Positions 20,993-44,426 of a DNA stretch of 64,000 bases are shown here, piece by piece. The stretch spans positions 310,001 to 374,000 of the forward strand of contig JAQBPX010000038.1 in NCBI GenBank assembly GCA_028287305.1, in the 5' to 3' direction. A model generated the notes under the pieces. It was not told the origin of the DNA. It saw nothing but the letters and a program-made list of their open reading frames with translations, and searched no databases. The stretch is from Gemmatimonadota bacterium. Its GTDB lineage: Bacteria > Gemmatimonadota > Gemmatimonadetes > Gemmatimonadales > Gemmatimonadaceae. Position 1 is the stretch's first letter. Every line of letters begins with the position of its first letter. Made by a program: the position numbers and the translations under genes.

Positions 20993-21228
20993 TGTTTGTC
21001 CTCGGGGCCCGGGAGCACGGCGTCCAGGAAGTCGAGGTCGGCCTGAATGCTCATGGCGCGAACACCAATCGGTGGTGGGAATCCGAACGCTAGCCGCCCC
21101 AGCCCGCCGCGCGACCGACTTTGCCGCAGCCTTGCAACACCCGTGTCCCCTGCTTGCCCGGACGGGCTGCCAGGCCGAGAATGGGGACGTCAACCCTATT
21201 CCGCATCGCGTTGTCCCACGGGGCAGAC

Positions 21229-21816
21229 ATGGAAACGCAGCAACCAGCCTCCCTCCCCCCAGCCGCCGCGCCGCTCGATGAGCGCGCGCTGCTGGACCGC
21301 GCCCGCCGCGGGGACGCCCGCGCGCAGCGAGGGCTCTACGACCTCCATGTCGACCGGATCTATCGCCTCACCTTTCGCATGACGGGAAGCGATGACCTCG
21401 CTCGGGACATGACCCAGGACACCTTCGTGAGCGCCTTCGCCGGCCTCGACCGCTTTCGCGGCGACTCGGCCTTCAGCAGCTGGCTCCACAGCATCGCGGT
21501 GAGTGTCACGCTCAACGGCCTCAAGCGACGCAAGCGCCTCTGGTCGCGCGAACATCCGCTCGACGAGGCGCAGGCGGTCGCAGGGACGGTCGTCGCCTCG
21601 GATCCGCTCCTCAAGGCGCGGCTGGCCGAGGCGGTCTCGCTGCTGCCGGAGCGCTGCCGCACCGTGTTCCTGATGCACGACGCGGAAGGCTTCACGCACG
21701 AGCAGATCGCCAGCGCGCTGGGCGTGACGGTCGGCACCTCCAAGGCCCAACTCTCCCGCGGGCGCGCCACGCTCCGTGTCGCACTCGCGAGCTTCGCGAA
21801 GGAATGGGAATCATGA
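21229..21816 (+). CDS. ECF-type RNA polymerase sigma factor
   Basis: A 195-aa sigma-70 relative with region 2 (LYDLHVDRIYRLTFRMTGSDDLARDMTQDTFVSAFAGLDRFRGDSAFSSW is spread over about residues 37-87; the key elements are DLARDMTQDTF and FSSWL) and region 4 (LLPERCRTVFLMHDAEGFTHEQIA with the helix-turn-helix GVTVGTSKAQLSRGRATLR). No region 3, as usual for ECF factors. The start is the ATG before ETQQP; longer in-frame starts exist but add unlikely sequence. It is coupled by ATGA overlap to a membrane-anchored putative anti-sigma gene and leads an operon with three HEAT-repeat proteins. Confidence 0.92.
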   Translation: METQQPASLPPAAAPLDERALLDRARRGDARAQRGLYDLHVDRIYRLTFRMTGSDDLARDMTQDTFVSAFAGLDRFRGDSAFSSWLHSIAVSVTLNGLKRRKRLWSREHPLDEAQAVAGTVVASDPLLKARLAEAVSLLPERCRTVFLMHDAEGFTHEQIASALGVTVGTSKAQLSRGRATLRVALASFAKEWES

Positions 21817-22484
21817 GCGACCTCAACGAACATCCCGATCACGACGACCCGCGCTTCGACGCCTGGCTGCAGCAGCAGGCAGCGCAGCTCAACACTCCGC
21901 CGGCGACCCCGCGCGACGAGATGTGGAGTGCGGTGAGCAGCAAGCTCGCCGCGAAGAAGCGCTTTACGGTGTCGCGCTACGCGTGGCCGATGGCGCTTGC
22001 CGCGGCCCTCGTGCTGGGCGTGGCGCTCGATCGCATGATGGTCGCGCGCTCGGCAAGTGCGCCCGTCGCTGCCTCGCAGGCGGCGACGTCGCCGGCCGCG
22101 CAGCCCAGCGACCCCGCGCGACTCTATCGCGTGGCCGCCTCCGCCACGCTCACGGAAGCGCAGGCCCTGCTCGTGTCGTACCGGCACGATGGCCTCGCCA
22201 TGCAGGACCCCGCCGCCGCGCGCAAGCTCGGCGCCTGGGGGCGGCAGGTGCTCGCCAGCACGCGCCTCCTCATCGACTCGCCGGCCGGCGATGACGCGGA
22301 GCTCCGCCCGCTGCTCGAGGACCTCGAGCTGGTGCTCGCGCAGATCGTTCGCCTCTCGGCGAACGCCACCGATTCCTCCGAAGTCTCCAGCGACCGCGCG
22401 CTGATCGACCGCGCGCTCACCGACAACAAGCTGCTCCCGCGCCTGCGCACCGCGATCCCCGCGGCGCCACAGGGCGCGGAATAG
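21813..22484 (+). CDS. Putative anti-sigma factor, single membrane span
   Basis: A 223-aa protein with an acidic soluble N-terminus (about 50 residues, including a WSAVSSKLAAKKRF segment), one membrane helix (YAWPMALAAALVLGVAL, about 51-70) and an extracytoplasmic C-terminal part rich in helix. This cytoplasmic-helix-exterior layout directly downstream of an ECF sigma gene, with a 4-bp overlap, is the usual arrangement of anti-sigma factors. The zinc motif HxxxCxxC is absent, so it would be a non-ZAS type. Role inferred from position and topology. Confidence 0.65.
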   Translation: MSDLNEHPDHDDPRFDAWLQQQAAQLNTPPATPRDEMWSAVSSKLAAKKRFTVSRYAWPMALAAALVLGVALDRMMVARSASAPVAASQAATSPAAQPSDPARLYRVAASATLTEAQALLVSYRHDGLAMQDPAAARKLGAWGRQVLASTRLLIDSPAGDDAELRPLLEDLELVLAQIVRLSANATDSSEVSSDRALIDRALTDNKLLPRLRTAIPAAPQGAE

Positions 22485-22499
22485 CACACGGAACTCATC

Positions 22500-23753
22500 A
22501 TGCTCATCACCCTCCGCAGCATCGTGGTAGTAGCGGGCGCCGTGACGCTCCTTTTTGGTAGTCATCCTGAGCGCAGCGAGGGATCTGCCGTTGCTCCTGG
22601 TCATCCTGAGCGCAGCGAAGGATCTGCCGTTGCTGGTAGTCATCCTGAGCAGAGCCAAGGATCTGAGGTGGCCGTCGAGACCTTCCGCACCACCCCGCCC
22701 CTCCCCACCACCGAAGACGATCCCGCCGACTCGCTCTACCGCACCGCCCGCGAGGCCCTCAACGCGCGCAACTACCGTCGCGCCGCCGACCTCTTCGGCG
22801 ACATCCCCCGCCGCTTTCCCAAGTCCACCTACACCGCCGACTCCTACTACTGGCGCGCCTTTGCCCTCTACCGCGCCGGCAGCGAGGACGACCTGCGCGA
22901 CGCCGTCGCCTCCCTGGAGGAGCAGCGCTCCGCGCACGCCGACGCCGGCACCCGCGCCGACGCCGACGCGCTCATGATCCGCATCCGCGGCGCACTCGGC
23001 AAGAAGGGCGACCAGGAGTCGGGCAAGAAGGTCGCGAGCGCCGCCCTCGAGGGCGCGCGCTGCTCGAAGGACGATGACGAGGACGACGTCCGCACCGCCG
23101 CGCTCAACGCCCTCATGCAGATGGACGCGAGCCGCGCGATGCCCATCCTCAAGCAGGTGATGGCGCGCCGCGACGCCTGCTCAGCGTCCCTCCGAAGGAA
23201 GGGGATCTTCCTCCTCTCGCAGGTGAACACGAAGGAGAGCGACGCCATGATCGTGGACGCCATCACGGCGGATCCGTCGCAGGAAGTCCGGGAGCAGGCC
23301 GTGTTCTGGATGGGCCAGCGCCGCTCGCCCGAGAACGCCGCCTTCCTCAAGAACCTCTTCCGCAGCTCGAAGAGCGAGGAGCTCCAGAAGAACGTCCTCT
23401 TCTCGCTCTCGCAGATGGGCGGCATGGGCAACGACAAGTGGCTGCTCGAGGTCGCGAACGATACTTCGGTACCGATGGAAGTGCGCAAGCACGCCCTGTT
23501 CTGCGCCAGCCAGGCCGGCACCAGGAGCACGGACTTCGCCGCGATGTACGACCGCATGAAGGAGCCCGAGCTGAAGGAACAGCTCATCTGGCTGGTCTCG
23601 GAATCCAACAGCACCGCCGCCGCCGACAAGCTGATCGACATCGCGAAGAACGACCCGAATCGCGAGATGCGGAAGAAGGCCATCTTCTGGCTCGGCCAGA
23701 AGAATGACCCGCGCATCCAGCAGCTGCTGCTCGACATCATCAACAAGAGGTAG
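22500..23753 (+). CDS. Exported TPR/HEAT-repeat protein containing an in-frame repeat array
   Basis: A 417-aa protein with a signal peptide (MLITLRSIVVVAGAVTLLFG). Immediately after it come three 13-residue units (SHPERSEGSAVAP and variants) encoded by a DNA repeat. Residues about 65-140 are TPR/YbgF-like (ALNARNYRRAADLFGDIPRRFP). From about 190 to the end there are six or more HEAT units of about 31 residues, each with an AxFWxGQ-type strand-helix signature (QAVFWMGQRRSPEN; KAIFWLGQKNDPR). HEAT arrays bind other proteins. It is the third gene of the ECF sigma operon and precedes two related HEAT genes, so it is probably part of the regulated response. Confidence 0.8.
   Translation: MLITLRSIVVVAGAVTLLFGSHPERSEGSAVAPGHPERSEGSAVAGSHPEQSQGSEVAVETFRTTPPLPTTEDDPADSLYRTAREALNARNYRRAADLFGDIPRRFPKSTYTADSYYWRAFALYRAGSEDDLRDAVASLEEQRSAHADAGTRADADALMIRIRGALGKKGDQESGKKVASAALEGARCSKDDDEDDVRTAALNALMQMDASRAMPILKQVMARRDACSASLRRKGIFLLSQVNTKESDAMIVDAITADPSQEVREQAVFWMGQRRSPENAAFLKNLFRSSKSEELQKNVLFSLSQMGGMGNDKWLLEVANDTSVPMEVRKHALFCASQAGTRSTDFAAMYDRMKEPELKEQLIWLVSESNSTAAADKLIDIAKNDPNREMRKKAIFWLGQKNDPRIQQLLLDIINKR
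22561..22664 (+). repeat. Three tandem copies of a 26-bp interspersed repeat on a 39-bp period
   Basis: Copies begin at 22561, 22600 and 22639, each starting GTCATCCTGAG and ending AAGGATCT or GGGATCT. The 26-bp core contains inverted ATCCT/AGGAT arms. Spacers are 13 bp and the period is exactly 39 bp, or 13 codons, so the array stays in frame in the HEAT protein. On the minus strand the same DNA encodes the SLRSAQDD/FAALRMT-type peptide often seen in spurious predictions, which marks it as a widely distributed bacterial repeat rather than a protein domain. Confidence 0.85.
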
Positions 23754-23757
23754 CCCA

Positions 23758-24738
23758 ATGCGCCGGCTCGTTTCCCTCGCGGCAGCGGCGCTCATCGCCG
23801 CGCCGCTCACCAGCGGCGCGCAGGCGCCCCTCGCCTCCGCCATCGAGCACGCTCCCGACGGCGTCGTCCGCCTGCAGTACGCCGCGCGCCAGGGCGTCTG
23901 CGGCGACGGAAGGGACGTCGTCGCCATGGGCGAGATGCTGTTCATGCGCGACCTCACCTCGTACGGCCACTTCAAGGGCGTGGACTGCCAGCCCGGCCCC
24001 CTTCGCGTTTCACTCACGCGCAGCGGCGGCAGGACCACCCGCAGCGTGGTGCAGGTGGGCGGATCCTGGCGCTCCACCTCCGAGCACGTGACGGACCTGG
24101 GCGTCGTCAGCTCGCGCGAAGCGGCGGACTACATCCTTTCCATCGTGCCGCAGCTCGAGGGCGGCAGGCAGCGGGAACGCTCGCTGCTGCCGGCGGTGCT
24201 CGCCGCCGATTTCGACGCGCTTCCCCCGCTGCTGTCCCTCGCCCGGAGCACCTCGCGCACCCGCGACACGCGACGCCAGGCCATCCAATGGATCGGCGTG
24301 CTCGGCGACCGCGAGCAGGTGCCGGCGCTCGCGTCGCTCGTGCATGCCGACGACAGCGAGGACGGCATCGCCACCTCGGCGCTCGGCGCGCTCGCCGCGC
24401 TCCGCAATGACGCGGGCCTCCCCACGCTGCTCGGCATTGCGCGCAATACGGCCGAGTCGATCACCCTTCGCAAGAGCGCGCTCTTCTGGGCTGGGCAGAG
24501 CCCCACCACGAAGACGTCGGACATCGTGGAAGTCTATGAAGGCGCCACGAATCGCGACCTCAGGGAGCACGCGATCTTCGTCCTCTCCGACCGCCACGAC
24601 GAGCCCTCGCTCCAGGCGCTGCTCAACATCGCCAAGACTGACCGCGACACGCGCATGCGCGGCCGCGCCCTCTTTTGGCTGGCCGAACGCGACGATCCGC
24701 GCGTGACGAAGCTCATCTCCGACCTCATCGGCAAGTGA
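23758..24738 (+). CDS. Exported HEAT-repeat protein with GVCGDG domain
   Basis: A 326-aa protein with a signal peptide (MRRLVSLAAAALIAAPLTSGA). The N-terminal domain has AARQGVCGDGRDVV followed by GVDCQPGPLRV; this pair of cysteines and the GP block is shared with the next gene. From about residue 165 come HEAT repeats, including KSALFWAGQSPTTK and ending RALFWLAERDDPR, the same signature as in the two flanking proteins. Starts four bases after the previous stop; its stop overlaps the next GTG start (GTGA). Probably a periplasmic scaffold; partner unknown. Confidence 0.8.
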   Translation: MRRLVSLAAAALIAAPLTSGAQAPLASAIEHAPDGVVRLQYAARQGVCGDGRDVVAMGEMLFMRDLTSYGHFKGVDCQPGPLRVSLTRSGGRTTRSVVQVGGSWRSTSEHVTDLGVVSSREAADYILSIVPQLEGGRQRERSLLPAVLAADFDALPPLLSLARSTSRTRDTRRQAIQWIGVLGDREQVPALASLVHADDSEDGIATSALGALAALRNDAGLPTLLGIARNTAESITLRKSALFWAGQSPTTKTSDIVEVYEGATNRDLREHAIFVLSDRHDEPSLQALLNIAKTDRDTRMRGRALFWLAERDDPRVTKLISDLIGK

Positions 24739-25514
24739 AATACTCACCGGCATTCATGTTCGCGGTGCTCGCCCTGGGCACACCCCTCGGCGCAAGTGCC
24801 CAGCAGCTAGCGCAACGCGTGCGCTCGAGCGATGGCGTGGTCACCTTCCAGCTCCACGCGCGCCCCGGAGTGTGCGGCGATGGCTCGCGCTACATCCACG
24901 TGGGTCGCTCCTACATGGGACAGGTGGGTCGCGATGGCTTCAGCGCTCCCTGCGTGGCCGGCCCCGTCCACGTTCGCCTGCAGGTCCGCAATGGCGACGT
25001 CGAGCGCCTCGACGCCTACGTCGGTCCCCGTGCGGCAGAGGGGCGCGACCTTGGCATGGTCGGCAGCGCCGAGGGAACCGCGTTCCTCCTGTCGATAGCG
25101 GCGAGCGCCGACGGCAACGCGGGGCAGAAGGCCATCATGCCCGCGGTGATCGCCGACAGCTCGGTCGTCTGGCCTGCGCTGCTGAAGATCGCGCGCGACC
25201 GTGACCGCCCGCGCGCCACGCGCAATGAAGCGAGCTTCTGGCTGTCACGCCTCGCGGGCGCCTCGCTCGCCGGCGTGCCCAACGATCCAACCGCCGGCGA
25301 GCCGGACACGCACGGCGCGAAGGACGAGGACGACGAGAAGACCAACGCGGTGTTCGTCCTCTCGCAGCTCAGCGGTGGCCGCGGCATCGAGCCGATGCTC
25401 GACATCGCGCGCTCGAACCCGGACCTCAAGGTTCGCAACTCCGCCCTCTTCTGGCTCGGCCAGAGCGGCGACCCGCGCGCCGTGGACCTGTTCGAGTCGA
25501 TCCTGCGCCGGTAG
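24735..25514 (+). CDS. Exported HEAT-repeat protein with GVCGDG domain (short paralogue)
   Basis: A 259-aa protein starting at GTG 24735, with a signal peptide ending LGASAQQ. The N-terminal domain repeats the GVCGDG...C...GPV pattern (HARPGVCGDGSRYI; SAPCVAGPVHV) of the upstream protein, so both come from a duplication. Its HEAT section is shorter and interrupted by an acidic stretch (GAKDEDDEKTN), ending in SALFWLGQSGDPR. It closes the ECF sigma operon. One base separates its stop from the stop of the convergent ADOP permease. Confidence 0.8.
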   Translation: MKYSPAFMFAVLALGTPLGASAQQLAQRVRSSDGVVTFQLHARPGVCGDGSRYIHVGRSYMGQVGRDGFSAPCVAGPVHVRLQVRNGDVERLDAYVGPRAAEGRDLGMVGSAEGTAFLLSIAASADGNAGQKAIMPAVIADSSVVWPALLKIARDRDRPRATRNEASFWLSRLAGASLAGVPNDPTAGEPDTHGAKDEDDEKTNAVFVLSQLSGGRGIEPMLDIARSNPDLKVRNSALFWLGQSGDPRAVDLFESILRR

Positions 25515-25515
25515 G

Positions 25516-28215
25516 TCACTCCCTCCGCAACGACTCCATCGGATCCATCGCCGCCGCCCGTCTCGCCGGCAGCCAGCTCGCGAGCCCCGCGACCACCAGC
25601 ATCACCAGGCAGCTCGCGCCCATGGTGACCGGGTCGCTGGGGCTCACGTCGTACAACAGGCCGCTCAGCACGTGCGTGGTCGCCAGCGCCCCGCCCAGCC
25701 CCGCCGCCACGCCAATCGCCGCGAGCAGCACGCCATGCCGCGCGATCATCCGCGTCACGTCACCACTCGTGGCGCCCAGCGCCATCCGCACGCCGATCTC
25801 CCGGCGCCGCACCATCACTCCATAGGCAAGCACGCCGTACAGTCCCACCGCCCCGAGCAGCAGCGCGATCACGCTCGCCGCGCCCAGCATCACCAGCACG
25901 AACCGCGTGCGCGCCGACGCCAGCGAGAGGATCTGCGACAGCGGCTGTTCGTCGTAGGTCGGCAATGCCGGGTCCGCGCGCCGCAGTATCGCGCGCAGTG
26001 GCGCAACCAGCGACTGCGGATCACCACTCCCGCGCACCTCGAGCCCCACGCTGCTCGACACGTTCACCCCCGCGCCATCGGGCGTCACGAGCGGGAAGTA
26101 CACGATCTCATCCGCCGGCTTGTCCAGCGCGGTCATGTGGACGTCGGCCACCACGCCCACCACGCTGAACCACGGGCCATCCAGCCCGGGGCGCAGCCGC
26201 TTGCCCAGCGGATCCTGGCCCTTCCAGTAACGCTCGGCGAACGCGCGGCTCACCACCGCCTCCGCCAGCGGCTTGTCCGCCGACGCGCGCTCGAACGTCC
26301 GCCCGCCCTGCAGCGGAATTCCCATGGCCGCAAAGAACCCCGAGCTCACGTTCGCCAGCGGCCGGTCCGGCGGCACCTCGTTCGGCGCCAGAGGCATCTC
26401 CTCGATCGTGAAGATGTTGTCGCTGTTGTCGCCCGAGAGCGGGATCCAGTCGGTCACCGCCACGCTGCGCACCCCCGGCAGCGCGCCCGCCTCGTCCATC
26501 ACGCGGTTCATCAGCGCCACGCGGCTCGCCGGGCTCGCATACGTTGCGCGCGGCATCGCGATGCGCATCGAGAGCACCCCGCTGGGCTCGAACCCTGGCG
26601 ACACATCCCGGAGCCGCGCGAAGCTGCGCGCCATCAACGCCGATCCCGCCACCAGCACCAGCGCGAGCGCCACCTGCCCCACCACCAGCGCACTGCGCGC
26701 CCGCTGCCGCTCCGGCCCCGCGGTCGCGGAGCGCGAGCTCGACTTGAGCACCACCGCCGGCACCAGCTTCCTCGAGCGCAGCACCGGAAGCAGGCTCACG
26801 AGCACCGCCGCGACCGTCGTGACGAGCAACGCGAACGCCACGACGCGCGCATCCACATGCACCTCCGCCAGCCGCGGCAGTTCGAGAGCATTCGGCGCCG
26901 CCTGCAACGCGCGAATGCCGGTCATCGCCAGCAGCGTGCCGAGCACGCCCCCCGCGGCGCTGAGCAGCAGCGCTTCCGGCAGGTACTGCGCGGCCAGCAC
27001 GCCTCGCCCTGCCCCGAGCGCGACGCGAATCGCAATGTCGCGCTCAGCCCCCTCGGCGCGAACCAGGAACAGGCTCGCGACGTTGGCGCACGCGATGATC
27101 AACAGCAATCCCACCGCGCCGAGCAAGATCCAGAGCATCCCCTGCACGTCGCCCACGATCGCGTCGCGCAGCGGGCGCACCACCGGCGCGAGGCGCGCCT
27201 GCGCCATCATCTCTCGCGGGATGTTCGACGGGAACTCGTCGAGCAGTCGCGGCAGGTAGCGCTCCAGCTCGGCGCGCGCCGTCGCGAGCGTCGCGCCCGC
27301 GCGCAGCCGCCCGACGGCCTCGAAGTTGAAGCTCGCCGGATTCGCATGCGCGGCGTCGAACGCGATCGGCACCCACGCGTCGCTCCGCCCCGGAAACGCG
27401 AAGCCATCCGGCATGACGCCGATCACCTCGCGCTGCACGCCGTCCACGTTCACCAGCTTGCCGAGCGCGCGAGGGTCGCTCCCGAACGTGCGAGCCCAGA
27501 ACGCGCGAGAAATCACGATCACCGGGCTCGCGCTCAGCTCGTCGTCGCGCGCCGAGATCACGCGCCCCGCCACCGGCGTGGCGCGCAGCGTGGGGAAGAA
27601 GCTGCCCGTCACCGCCGCCACCGCCACGCGCTCCGGCGTGCCGTCAGCCGCCGCGCTGCGCACGTTGGCGTGACCCATCCGGTAGCCCGTTATGTGCTCG
27701 AACGCCTGCGTCGCGTGGCGCTCGTAGAGCAGGATGGTGCCGTCGCTCTGGTCCACCGTGCTGCGCCCCGAGATCTGGATCGAGTGCGACAGTCGCACCA
27801 GCCGCTCCGGCTCGGCGAAGGGCAGCGGCCGGATCAGAATCCCGTCCACCACCGAGAACACCGCGGTGGCCGCGCCGATGCCCAGCGCCAGCATCACGAT
27901 CACCGCCGCCGCGAATCCCGGCGCCGAGCGCAGGCGTCGCAGCGCGAATCGCGCGTGCAGCAGCGCGGTGGTGACGATCTCGAGTCGCTTCATTCTGCGG
28001 TTCCGCTCGTGGCTCAGGTCAATGCAGCGCTCCCGCACCCGCGAGATGTCGCCGAAGCGCCGCTGCGCCTCATCCTGCGCGTCCCGTTCGCCCAGGCCGG
28101 CTTCGCACAGCAGCTCGGCGCGCATCGCGAGGTGGAACGCGAGCTCGTCGTCCACGTCGCGCTCCGGCGGCGTGCGCCAGAAGCGCCGCTCGCGCAGCCA
28201 CCGCGCGCCGCTCAT
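25516..28215 (-). CDS. ADOP-type ABC transporter permease (FtsX/MacB-like)
   Basis: An 899-aa membrane protein. It begins with the cytoplasmic ADOP segment (RDVDDELAFHLAMRAELL...RRFGDISRVRE), then a first MacB/FtsX half: helix RSAPGFAAAVIVMLALGIGAA, periplasmic MacB_PCD domain, and three helices (LLGAVGLLLIIACANVASLF). A second half repeats this, ending RREIGVRMALGATSGDV and the conserved PARRAAAMDPMESLR. About eight membrane helices in total. These permeases work with an ATPase encoded elsewhere, as none is adjacent. The start overlaps the PadR stop (ATGA), so it is the target of that repressor. Confidence 0.9.
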   Translation of the reverse strand: MSGARWLRERRFWRTPPERDVDDELAFHLAMRAELLCEAGLGERDAQDEAQRRFGDISRVRERCIDLSHERNRRMKRLEIVTTALLHARFALRRLRSAPGFAAAVIVMLALGIGAATAVFSVVDGILIRPLPFAEPERLVRLSHSIQISGRSTVDQSDGTILLYERHATQAFEHITGYRMGHANVRSAAADGTPERVAVAAVTGSFFPTLRATPVAGRVISARDDELSASPVIVISRAFWARTFGSDPRALGKLVNVDGVQREVIGVMPDGFAFPGRSDAWVPIAFDAAHANPASFNFEAVGRLRAGATLATARAELERYLPRLLDEFPSNIPREMMAQARLAPVVRPLRDAIVGDVQGMLWILLGAVGLLLIIACANVASLFLVRAEGAERDIAIRVALGAGRGVLAAQYLPEALLLSAAGGVLGTLLAMTGIRALQAAPNALELPRLAEVHVDARVVAFALLVTTVAAVLVSLLPVLRSRKLVPAVVLKSSSRSATAGPERQRARSALVVGQVALALVLVAGSALMARSFARLRDVSPGFEPSGVLSMRIAMPRATYASPASRVALMNRVMDEAGALPGVRSVAVTDWIPLSGDNSDNIFTIEEMPLAPNEVPPDRPLANVSSGFFAAMGIPLQGGRTFERASADKPLAEAVVSRAFAERYWKGQDPLGKRLRPGLDGPWFSVVGVVADVHMTALDKPADEIVYFPLVTPDGAGVNVSSSVGLEVRGSGDPQSLVAPLRAILRRADPALPTYDEQPLSQILSLASARTRFVLVMLGAASVIALLLGAVGLYGVLAYGVMVRRREIGVRMALGATSGDVTRMIARHGVLLAAIGVAAGLGGALATTHVLSGLLYDVSPSDPVTMGASCLVMLVVAGLASWLPARRAAAMDPMESLRRE

Positions 28216-28547
28216 GGTTTCGCGGCTTCCAGCACGCGCCCCATGGTCGCCACGAAGTTGCGCCACCGGTTCTCCTCGGCGCGCAGCATGCGCCGGCCGA
28301 GCGCGGTGAGCGAGTAGAACTTGGCGCGGCGGCCATTGTCCGACACGCCCCACTCGGCGGCGATCCATCCCTCGGCTTCCAGGCGGTAGAGCGCGGGGTA
28401 GAGCGAGCCTTCCTGGAGGTTGAGCTCCTCGCCGGAGACGGTCTCGATCCAGCGCGAGATCCCGAATCCGTGCGACGGATTCCAGCTCAGCGCCTTGAGG
28501 ACCAGGAGCTCGATGGTGCCGTAGTGGTCGCGTTCCAGCTTCGCCAT
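28212..28547 (-). CDS. PadR-family transcriptional regulator
   Basis: A 111-aa winged-helix protein: ELLVLKALSWNPSHGFGISRWIE, then [25 protein letters not shown], and the wing NGRRAKFYSLTALGRR, all typical of short PadR regulators. The C-terminal helix is short, as in the ADOP-linked subgroup. PadR proteins repress their own operon and release on ligand or stress. The gene overlaps the ADOP permease by four bases and has a palindrome at its promoter. A second PadR of the same type is at 45983-46327. Confidence 0.92.
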   Translation of the reverse strand: MAKLERDHYGTIELLVLKALSWNPSHGFGISRWIETVSGEELNLQEGSLYPALYRLEAEGWIAAEWGVSDNGRRAKFYSLTALGRRMLRAEENRWRNFVATMGRVLEAAKP

Positions 28548-28554
28548 GTGTCTC

Positions 28555-28600
28555 CCTCAGAATTCTGAGGAAGTATTTCACCGACGTGCGAATCGCGCAA
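28555..28600 (-). promoter_or_regulatory. Promoter with palindromic candidate operator for the PadR-ADOP operon
   Basis: On the minus strand a -35-like TTGCGC (28600-28595) lies 17 bases from a -10-like AATACT (28577-28572). Just downstream is a perfect 16-bp palindrome, CCTCAGAATTCTGAGG (28570-28555), covering the expected transcription start. PadR regulators bind such palindromes and autoregulate, so this is the likely operator. The boxes are only moderately close to consensus. Confidence 0.5.
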
Positions 28601-42763: not shown

Positions 42764-42956
42764 CTCGTCCTCGTGAAGTTGATGCCTCACAGGATGGCAA
42801 GGCGCTGGCACGCGAGCGCATGCATGTCGCCCAGCGGTCGCAGCGGTCGCCAGGCGGCACAAGCGCGCTGTCCGCGACTCAACCATCGGCGTGCACGGGC
42901 TGTCCAACGCGCATCGCATCCCGGTCGCTCCCCGCCACCGCCCACTCGTGATTTCG

Positions 42957-44426
42957 ATGCCCATACCGTTCGCTGGCCGCCTGCTTTCAATTGCCCTTTT
43001 CGCGATCGCGCTGGCCGTCCCCGCCGCGGCGCGCGCCCAGCTCACCTCGCCCGACACTGCGCACTGGACCTGGAGCGACCTTCGTTCCCAGCCTGCGGTG
43101 GACACGAGCCAGCTGCGATGGCTGGAGGACAACGTGCCGATCGATGAGGCGCACGCGCTGCTCTCGCGCATTGGCCAACTGTCGCAGCCCGCGGCCATCC
43201 AGATGCTGCCGTCGTTGAGCTACCTGGAGGGAAACCAGTCGTCGCGCTCGCTGCGCCTGCTCGCCGATTCGCTGGCGATCCGCCCCGCGGCGGGGTGGGC
43301 AGGCCAGGTTCGCATCGCGTACTTCCTTGCCCGCTCGCGCAAGGTAATTCTCGACAACGCCAGCGGCTCGACATACCAGCCAAGGTTCTCGGGCACGCCT
43401 TTCTCCCTGCCGGCTCCTCCCTCGGCCAAGCCCCAGCCTGGCGCCGCAGTGGCGCTCTCGCTCGACTTCGCCCCCGCCGAAACGCTGCTGGCGATCATCG
43501 GCACGCCCGACATTCCATATCACGACGCGCTCGCGCGCATCAGCACGCCCGCGTTCGACGCACTGGTGATTCACCATGGCCAGTCGTTCTACGACATTAC
43601 CCTCACGCGCGAGCAGCTGGCGCTGAACCTGGTCCATGCCTCCAGCACGCAGCCGCTGGACGAGCTCTATCGCTATGCGCGCCCCGGCGGCTTCTATCAC
43701 TTCGCCGACGTGCGCGAGAACGCCGATCGCTATCGCGCTCTCTTCGCCACCCTTGCCGCGCACCGGGAGGACATCGCCCGGTACCTCAACGCATCCCTGT
43801 CGCCGTATCTCCCCGCAGGCACGCGCATCGACCGGCGCGTGAGCTTCTACTTCGACGACCTCTCGGACGGATGGGGGTACAACGACATCGCCGCCGTGCC
43901 CCTGGAGTACTACAAGGACGACTTCGCGCGCATGTTCAACACCATGGTGCACGAGACCTTCCACGCGGCCCAGGCCGCGGTGCGCCGCACCTCCACGCCC
44001 CCCGCGCGGCGCCTGCCGACCGAGGCCGACTCCGCCATCGCCCAGGCATTCAGCTACGTGCTGGGCGAGGGCACGGCTAACTACCTCGCGCCCACGCTGG
44101 CCCGCTCCGCCGCGTCGGCCGACAGCATGAGCCGCGCCGGCGCCGCCATCCTCGCCGAGCTCGTGGCCATGCGCGGCGGCGACTGGAATGCCGCGCGCGC
44201 GCAGGAGCTGCTCAACCGGGGTGTGGCCGGCGGCGGCCCCTTCTACTGGCTGGGCGCTGCCATGGCGCGCGAGCTCGTCGCGCGCGATGGGCCCGCTGCC
44301 ATCGGACGCCTGCTGCAGTCCGACGGCCTGGCATTCGCGCAGGCGTACATCAGCCGCGTCCGGCCAGCATTGCTGCTGTCTGAGCCGGTGCGTGAAGCGG
44401 TGCGGCAGCTGGCGGTCACGCCGTAG
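42957..44426 (+). CDS. DUF5700-type putative zinc metalloprotease, exported
   Basis: A 489-aa protein with signal peptide ending VPAAARAQ. The zinc motif HETFH is at His332/Glu333/His336 with EGTANY (Glu371) as third ligand, 38 residues beyond the HExxH, as in the paralogue at 8180-9286 (about 40 residues). The N-terminal 190 residues are additional compared with that paralogue. It should act outside the cytoplasm. Divergent from the amidohydrolase operon; a strong inverted repeat follows its stop. Confidence 0.72.
   Translation: MPIPFAGRLLSIALFAIALAVPAAARAQLTSPDTAHWTWSDLRSQPAVDTSQLRWLEDNVPIDEAHALLSRIGQLSQPAAIQMLPSLSYLEGNQSSRSLRLLADSLAIRPAAGWAGQVRIAYFLARSRKVILDNASGSTYQPRFSGTPFSLPAPPSAKPQPGAAVALSLDFAPAETLLAIIGTPDIPYHDALARISTPAFDALVIHHGQSFYDITLTREQLALNLVHASSTQPLDELYRYARPGGFYHFADVRENADRYRALFATLAAHREDIARYLNASLSPYLPAGTRIDRRVSFYFDDLSDGWGYNDIAAVPLEYYKDDFARMFNTMVHETFHAAQAAVRRTSTPPARRLPTEADSAIAQAFSYVLGEGTANYLAPTLARSAASADSMSRAGAAILAELVAMRGGDWNAARAQELLNRGVAGGGPFYWLGAAMARELVARDGPAAIGRLLQSDGLAFAQAYISRVRPALLLSEPVREAVRQLAVTP

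Follow-up and report, generated by a model that had tools for sequence, protein, structure and literature searches.

The operon algU-mucA-mucB parallels rpoE-rseA-rseB. In E. coli, the periplasmic protein RseB is encoded in the sigma operon rpoE-rseA-rseB and binds to the periplasmic domain of RseA, and cleavage of RseA needs disruption of the binding between both proteins (PMC8103513). Among the class I anti-sigma factors (ASDI), zinc and zinc-free domains occur within one group (PMC7406223).

A related design is found in the window, that is, the whole stretch of 64,000 nucleotides from a Gemmatimonadota bacterium analyzed here. At positions 21229-25514 it holds five genes on the plus strand, SIG-ANTI-H1-H2-H3, which overlap or are spaced by no more than 15 bases (Table 1), in agreement with the original prediction of a compact five-gene cluster. 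Like rpoE-rseA-rseB(-rseC), the locus combines an ECF sigma factor, a single-pass anti-sigma factor (in this case a candidate), and periplasmic partners in one operon that is self-regulated, apparently so here. Here, however, as many as three TPR/HEAT solenoids are the partners, and the periplasmic part of ANTI is a helix bundle; searches with Pfam found no RseA domain in the operon proteins and no MucB_RseB domain in H1-H3. The layout had been presented as uncommon, which does not hold for the succession of sigma factor, anti-sigma factor, and periplasmic regulator, already known from rpoE-rseA-rseB (PMC8103513), but does hold for the HEAT/TPR partners and for the periplasmic bundle of ANTI, both of which are unusual. 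Literature searches on ECF with HEAT, ECF with Gemmatimonadetes or Gemmatimonas, and DUF5916, in a collection with few subscription papers and without the main re-classification of ECF factors, returned no account of such a system. The operon thus appears to be a phylum-wide, so far undescribed variant of the sigma/anti-sigma/periplasmic-partner design. Next to it, at 25516-28581 on the minus strand, a large frame resembling a permease lies together with a PadR-type gene (28212-28547); they are convergent with the operon and stop at a distance of 2 bases from the H3 end.

Table 1. Features of the SIG-ANTI-HEAT operon, in positions of the window.
Feature	Positions	Strand	Description
ECF-type promoter	21188..21223	+	CGTCAACCCTATTCCGCATCGCGTTGTCCCACGGGG; -35 CAACC at 21191, -10 TGTC ending 21215
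SIG	21229..21816	+	ECF sigma factor, 195 aa, sigma2 and sigma4 only
ANTI	21804..22484	+	Membrane anti-sigma candidate, 223-226 aa, no zinc motif
ANTI transmembrane helix	21984..22058	+	Residues 58-82; from model helix and hydrophobic sequence
ANTI periplasmic helix bundle	22113..22427	+	Residues 101-205; from model and alignment
H1	22500..23753	+	Predicted exported TPR and HEAT protein, 417 aa
Interspersed repeat copies	22561..22664	+	Three in-frame copies encoding HPERSEGS; H1 spacer after signal peptide
H2	23758..24738	+	Exported, 326 aa; Cys domain (about residues 24-125) and HEAT
H3	24735..25514	+	Exported, 259 aa, GTG start; beta-rich Cys domain (about residues 31-108) and HEAT

The identification of SIG as an ECF sigma factor is borne out by Pfam, which detects both regions (Sigma70_r2, 8e-14; r4_2, 8e-17), and by the NCBIfam sigma70-ECF model TIGR02937, above its cut-off. 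The protein carries neither a sigma1 region nor a long sigma3. Directly 5' of SIG the promoter of the operon reads CAACCCTTTC-N11-TGTC, with an exact pattern match at 21191-21215 and 13 bases between the end of the -10 part and the start codon of SIG. When the DNA preceding SIG was aligned across loci, a single motif with fixed spacing emerged, acgCAACccTttc-N11-TGTC. A matrix built from 40 loci ranks the window promoter as the best site of the 64 kb, with a score of 20.7 against 17.7 for the next, and finds no site of at least 15 in shuffled sequence. Sites precede SIG in 38 of these 40 loci, which are the training set, and none falls inside any operon. Since the matrix was trained on those loci, a fairer test is given by 20 held-out loci, where a site precedes SIG in 17 and only two others appear in about 150 kb. 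Many ECF sigma factors, though not all, activate themselves from a promoter of the ECF type. With a single site before SIG and none inside operons, one promoter of this ECF type, located at SIG, most likely serves the operon. Separate promoters for the HEAT genes, an arrangement that the original prediction had named as evidence against it, were not found as far as the SIG-promoter type is concerned; the one conserved promoter is that preceding SIG. Promoter-like sites also lie elsewhere in this genome. The site at 42880-42904 of the window (17.7) is placed just before the gene for a secreted 511-aa DUF5700 putative zinc peptidase (42891-44426), and a strong one (26.2) at position 1501 of locus L085 has no convincing gene downstream on its strand.

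ANTI may start at the ATG at 21804 (MGIM) or at 21813, and the MGxM start conserved in the alignment of its relatives favors the former. As proposed, it is a non-zinc membrane anti-sigma candidate: the HxxxCxxC motif of the zinc subtype is absent from the window's protein and one transmembrane helix is predicted. It shares with zinc-free ASDI proteins the N-terminal cytoplasmic helices, the single transmembrane segment, the C-terminal periplasmic domain, and a gene beside that of the ECF sigma factor; in about 60 loci ANTI adjoins SIG, mostly overlapping it, as the class I definition of a cognate gene next to the ECF gene describes. It differs from them in that only two helices are predicted before the membrane, where the class I anti-sigma domain has about four, and in that neither half matches any Pfam family, anti-sigma models included. 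The AlphaFold2 model has a pLDDT of 82 overall and mostly above 90 in the C-terminal helix bundle. This bundle is conserved to the same degree as the transmembrane segment, and its mean pairwise identity of 0.42 exceeds the 0.35 of the cytoplasmic part, a pattern compatible with a binding domain. A Foldseek search of the PDB with the model gave nothing at E <= 0.001. VIA-align aligned the model with helical bundles including many chemoreceptor ligand-binding domains (best Z 10.4, rmsd 3.8, 120 residues), but a resemblance between helical bundles at this level says no more than that their arrangement is common, and a ligand-binding role for ANTI is therefore not claimed.

The HEAT content proposed for the three downstream proteins is found in all of them by Pfam HEAT_2, with 66.7 bits for H1 (2e-18), 46.7 for H2 (4e-12), and 27.7 for H3 (4e-6), the last lying exactly at the curated cut-off of 27.7. 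They also share the anticipated C-terminal HEAT unit, ending in AIFWLGQKNDPR, ALFWLAERDDPR, and ALFWLGQSGDPR in H1, H2, and H3, respectively. The description of the three as paralogs stands for H2 and H3, which have in common the predicted N-terminal GVCGDG...C...GP domain, and only for the HEAT half of H1 (about residues 188-417), as its N-terminal half is a TPR domain (about residues 71-178). This TPR half resembles by sequence the NCBIfam YbgF-type TPR (YbgF/CpoB) and BamD, but scores below the family cut-offs, and H1 further departs from those proteins in being fused to HEAT repeats and encoded with a sigma factor. In a profile search of structures, H1 matched BamD and alphaRep. The spacer after its hydrophobic stretch is variable among relatives; in the window's protein, the repeat found there is 26 bases long (GTCATCCTGAGCGNAGCGAAGGATCT) and has 91 copies genome-wide with at most 2 mismatches, compared with 0 for the reversed control. 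By eye, the signal peptide of H2 ends in AQA and that of H3 is clear. Across 34 relatives, no variation is seen at C47, C73, G76, and P77 of the shared Cys domain. The AlphaFold2 model of H3 (pLDDT 89, pTM 0.85) consists of a small beta domain and helical repeats; Foldseek found nothing for it in the PDB at E <= 0.001, and the HEAT/armadillo-type matches of its C-terminal end in VIA-align (best Z 7.2, rmsd 3.0, 63 residues) are below the meaningful level.

The gene order is kept phylum-wide. With H1 as the only query, 177 of 298 Gemmatimonadota genomes gave a match, and the order SIG-ANTI-H1-H2/H3 is present in the 40 neighborhoods of the best matches (39 genomes and, in addition, the second operon copy of the window's genome) except one, L071, where SIG is lost at an assembly gap and ANTI runs into unread bases. 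To avoid selection by H1, the 20 held-out loci were chosen by ANTI matches, weak ones and second copies included: all 20 contain SIG-ANTI and 18 an H1 of usual length, the remaining two showing a short H1-like frame and a contig edge. With the window's genome set aside, H1 (E-value cut 1e-6) and ANTI occur together in 161 of 295 genomes and singly in 6 and 4, and in 124 neither is present; in two single-gene genomes that were checked, G147 and G291, contig ends break the locus. Altogether, about 60 loci representing seven families keep the order, and their aligned SIG proteins share only 43-65% identity with that of the window. In most loci the HEAT genes number two or three, and several have H1 alone. 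Among the best 80 loci of named genomes, every one whose name includes a phylum belongs to the Gemmatimonadota, and members elsewhere are possible. From the comparison of loci, the operon, its single promoter of this type, and its conservation are well supported, and the recurrence of layout and promoter across most families points to an envelope-sensing system rather than to genes grouped by chance. In the window's genome, the second copy (G000:C16:30242-34519; L039:3243-7520) encodes H1 and one H2-type gene behind a diverged promoter, GAACGCTTTT...GCGTCC.

Besides the operon itself, the promoter motif precedes other genes. The exact pattern GCAACCCTTTC-N11-TGTC, used as a further test of the promoter independent of the first, has 30 matches in 296 genomes, 18 of them before SIG-ANTI, and 0 in the reversed control. 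With one mismatch allowed, the following gene was read at 133 sites, from which many known SIG-ANTI sites were left out, so that the numbers are counts and not proportions: the recurrent classes besides SIG-ANTI are DUF5916/CBM9 (27 sites), PadR (15), and DUF4097-like (3). Examples of DUF5916, CBM9, and PadR were confirmed by Pfam, while the DUF4097 label is by resemblance only, the scanned example having no Pfam match. Several of the PadR genes are followed by an ABC-type permease; the PadR/permease pair beside H3, even though it belongs to a class found with the motif elsewhere, has no motif site before it. In the window's own genome, such sites occur in front of a gene for a DUF5916 protein, a BlaI-BlaR1 pair, and an amidohydrolase gene. 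An ECF sigma factor from a different branch follows seven of the fetched sites; six of these belong to operon-negative genomes and the seventh to the window's genome (site at G000:C23:221358-221383, locus L313; ECF gene at C23:221677-222216). Operon-negative genomes also carry 4 of the 27 DUF5916 sites and two PadR sites. In view of these two observations, an assignment of the whole motif regulon to SIG was rejected. Another sigma factor probably reads a very similar promoter, the motif regulon may be shared between sigmas, and the SIG regulon is therefore provisional.

The evidence most relevant to ANTI comes from the genus g63 (loci L046, L362, and L363), the only one in which ANTI starts with a zinc anti-sigma domain and keeps the periplasmic bundle. 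The domain is zf-HC2 by Pfam in L046 (1e-9) and an HxxxCxxC N-terminus recognized by eye in L362 and L363. The sigma factor of L046 belongs to another tree branch, with long branches. The HEAT genes are present in L046 and L363, and in L362 H1 begins before the contig end. Such a swap fits the mixture of zinc and zinc-free domains within one class I group (PMC7406223), and zinc-domain homologs at the same operon position offer the best evidence that ANTI may be an anti-sigma factor. The rates of change are consistent with a link between the bundle and the HEAT proteins: once the part explained by SIG is removed, the distances of the ANTI bundle have their highest correlation with the N-domain of H3 (r 0.46, permutation p 0.001), compared with 0.19 for the cytoplasmic part of ANTI, in an exploratory comparison of several pairs where the permutation ignores relatedness and relatedness is not fully removed.

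These data lead to a model in which ANTI would keep SIG at the inner membrane until a periplasmic signal frees it. The released SIG would transcribe the whole operon from its one promoter, so that ANTI and the three exported TPR/HEAT proteins would be produced together with it. The HEAT proteins would then act on the periplasmic side of ANTI, H2 and H3 via their Cys domain, setting or restoring inhibition, and the outcome would be an RseB-like negative feedback built from alpha-solenoids. From the sequences we infer that SIG recognizes the promoter, ANTI inhibits SIG, and the HEAT proteins contact ANTI. As a whole, this autoregulated envelope-sensing module with HEAT feedback on ANTI is proposed with confidence balanced midway between acceptance and doubt, and the chances of the feedback role, judged by itself, are about even. 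Indirect support for that role comes from the domain swap and the rate co-variation, and the conservation of the bundle likewise points to the periplasmic side of ANTI. More tentatively, the system could be a phylum-specific class of ECF system in which the bundle and the secreted TPR/HEAT co-sensors make up one conserved unit for sensing, open to combination with different sigma factors and sigma-binding domains.

The HEAT genes could equally be outputs of the circuit. If so, their products would be effectors only, periplasmic scaffolds or chaperones that help the outer membrane and make no contact with ANTI. The YbgF/BamD-type matches of the H1 TPR half agree with this possible but rather doubtful explanation, as does the presence of the motif before DUF5916/CBM9 genes and PadR/ABC permeases, which makes a wider envelope regulon likely. 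However, it leaves unexplained why the HEAT genes stay in the sigma operon across the phylum, and why they stay with the ANTI bundle after the sigma factor and the binding domain have been swapped. The latter favors an action of the HEAT proteins at the sensor over a passive output. A positive receptor role, in which H2/H3 loaded with a ligand or in a given redox state would bind ANTI and trigger the release of SIG, is unlikely: the two invariant cysteines of the N-domain would suit it, and so would a rate co-variation that is highest with the periplasmic bundle of ANTI, but H2/H3 match no ligand-binding family and the model has no significant structural match. That the genes are unrelated neighbors, joined by chance or by one recent event, has practically no likelihood left, being refuted by their conservation in so many divergent loci and families. 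Feedback on ANTI is thus favored over both the receptor role and pure output.

If the feedback model is true, it would provide a little-studied phylum with a defined envelope-sensing sigma circuit and a readable promoter, whose matrix makes the regulon directly testable. It would also mean that alpha-solenoid proteins can fill the role that RseB has in proteobacteria. The domain swap, finally, suggests that anti-sigma factors consist of a sensing half and a sigma-binding half that can evolve as separable modules.
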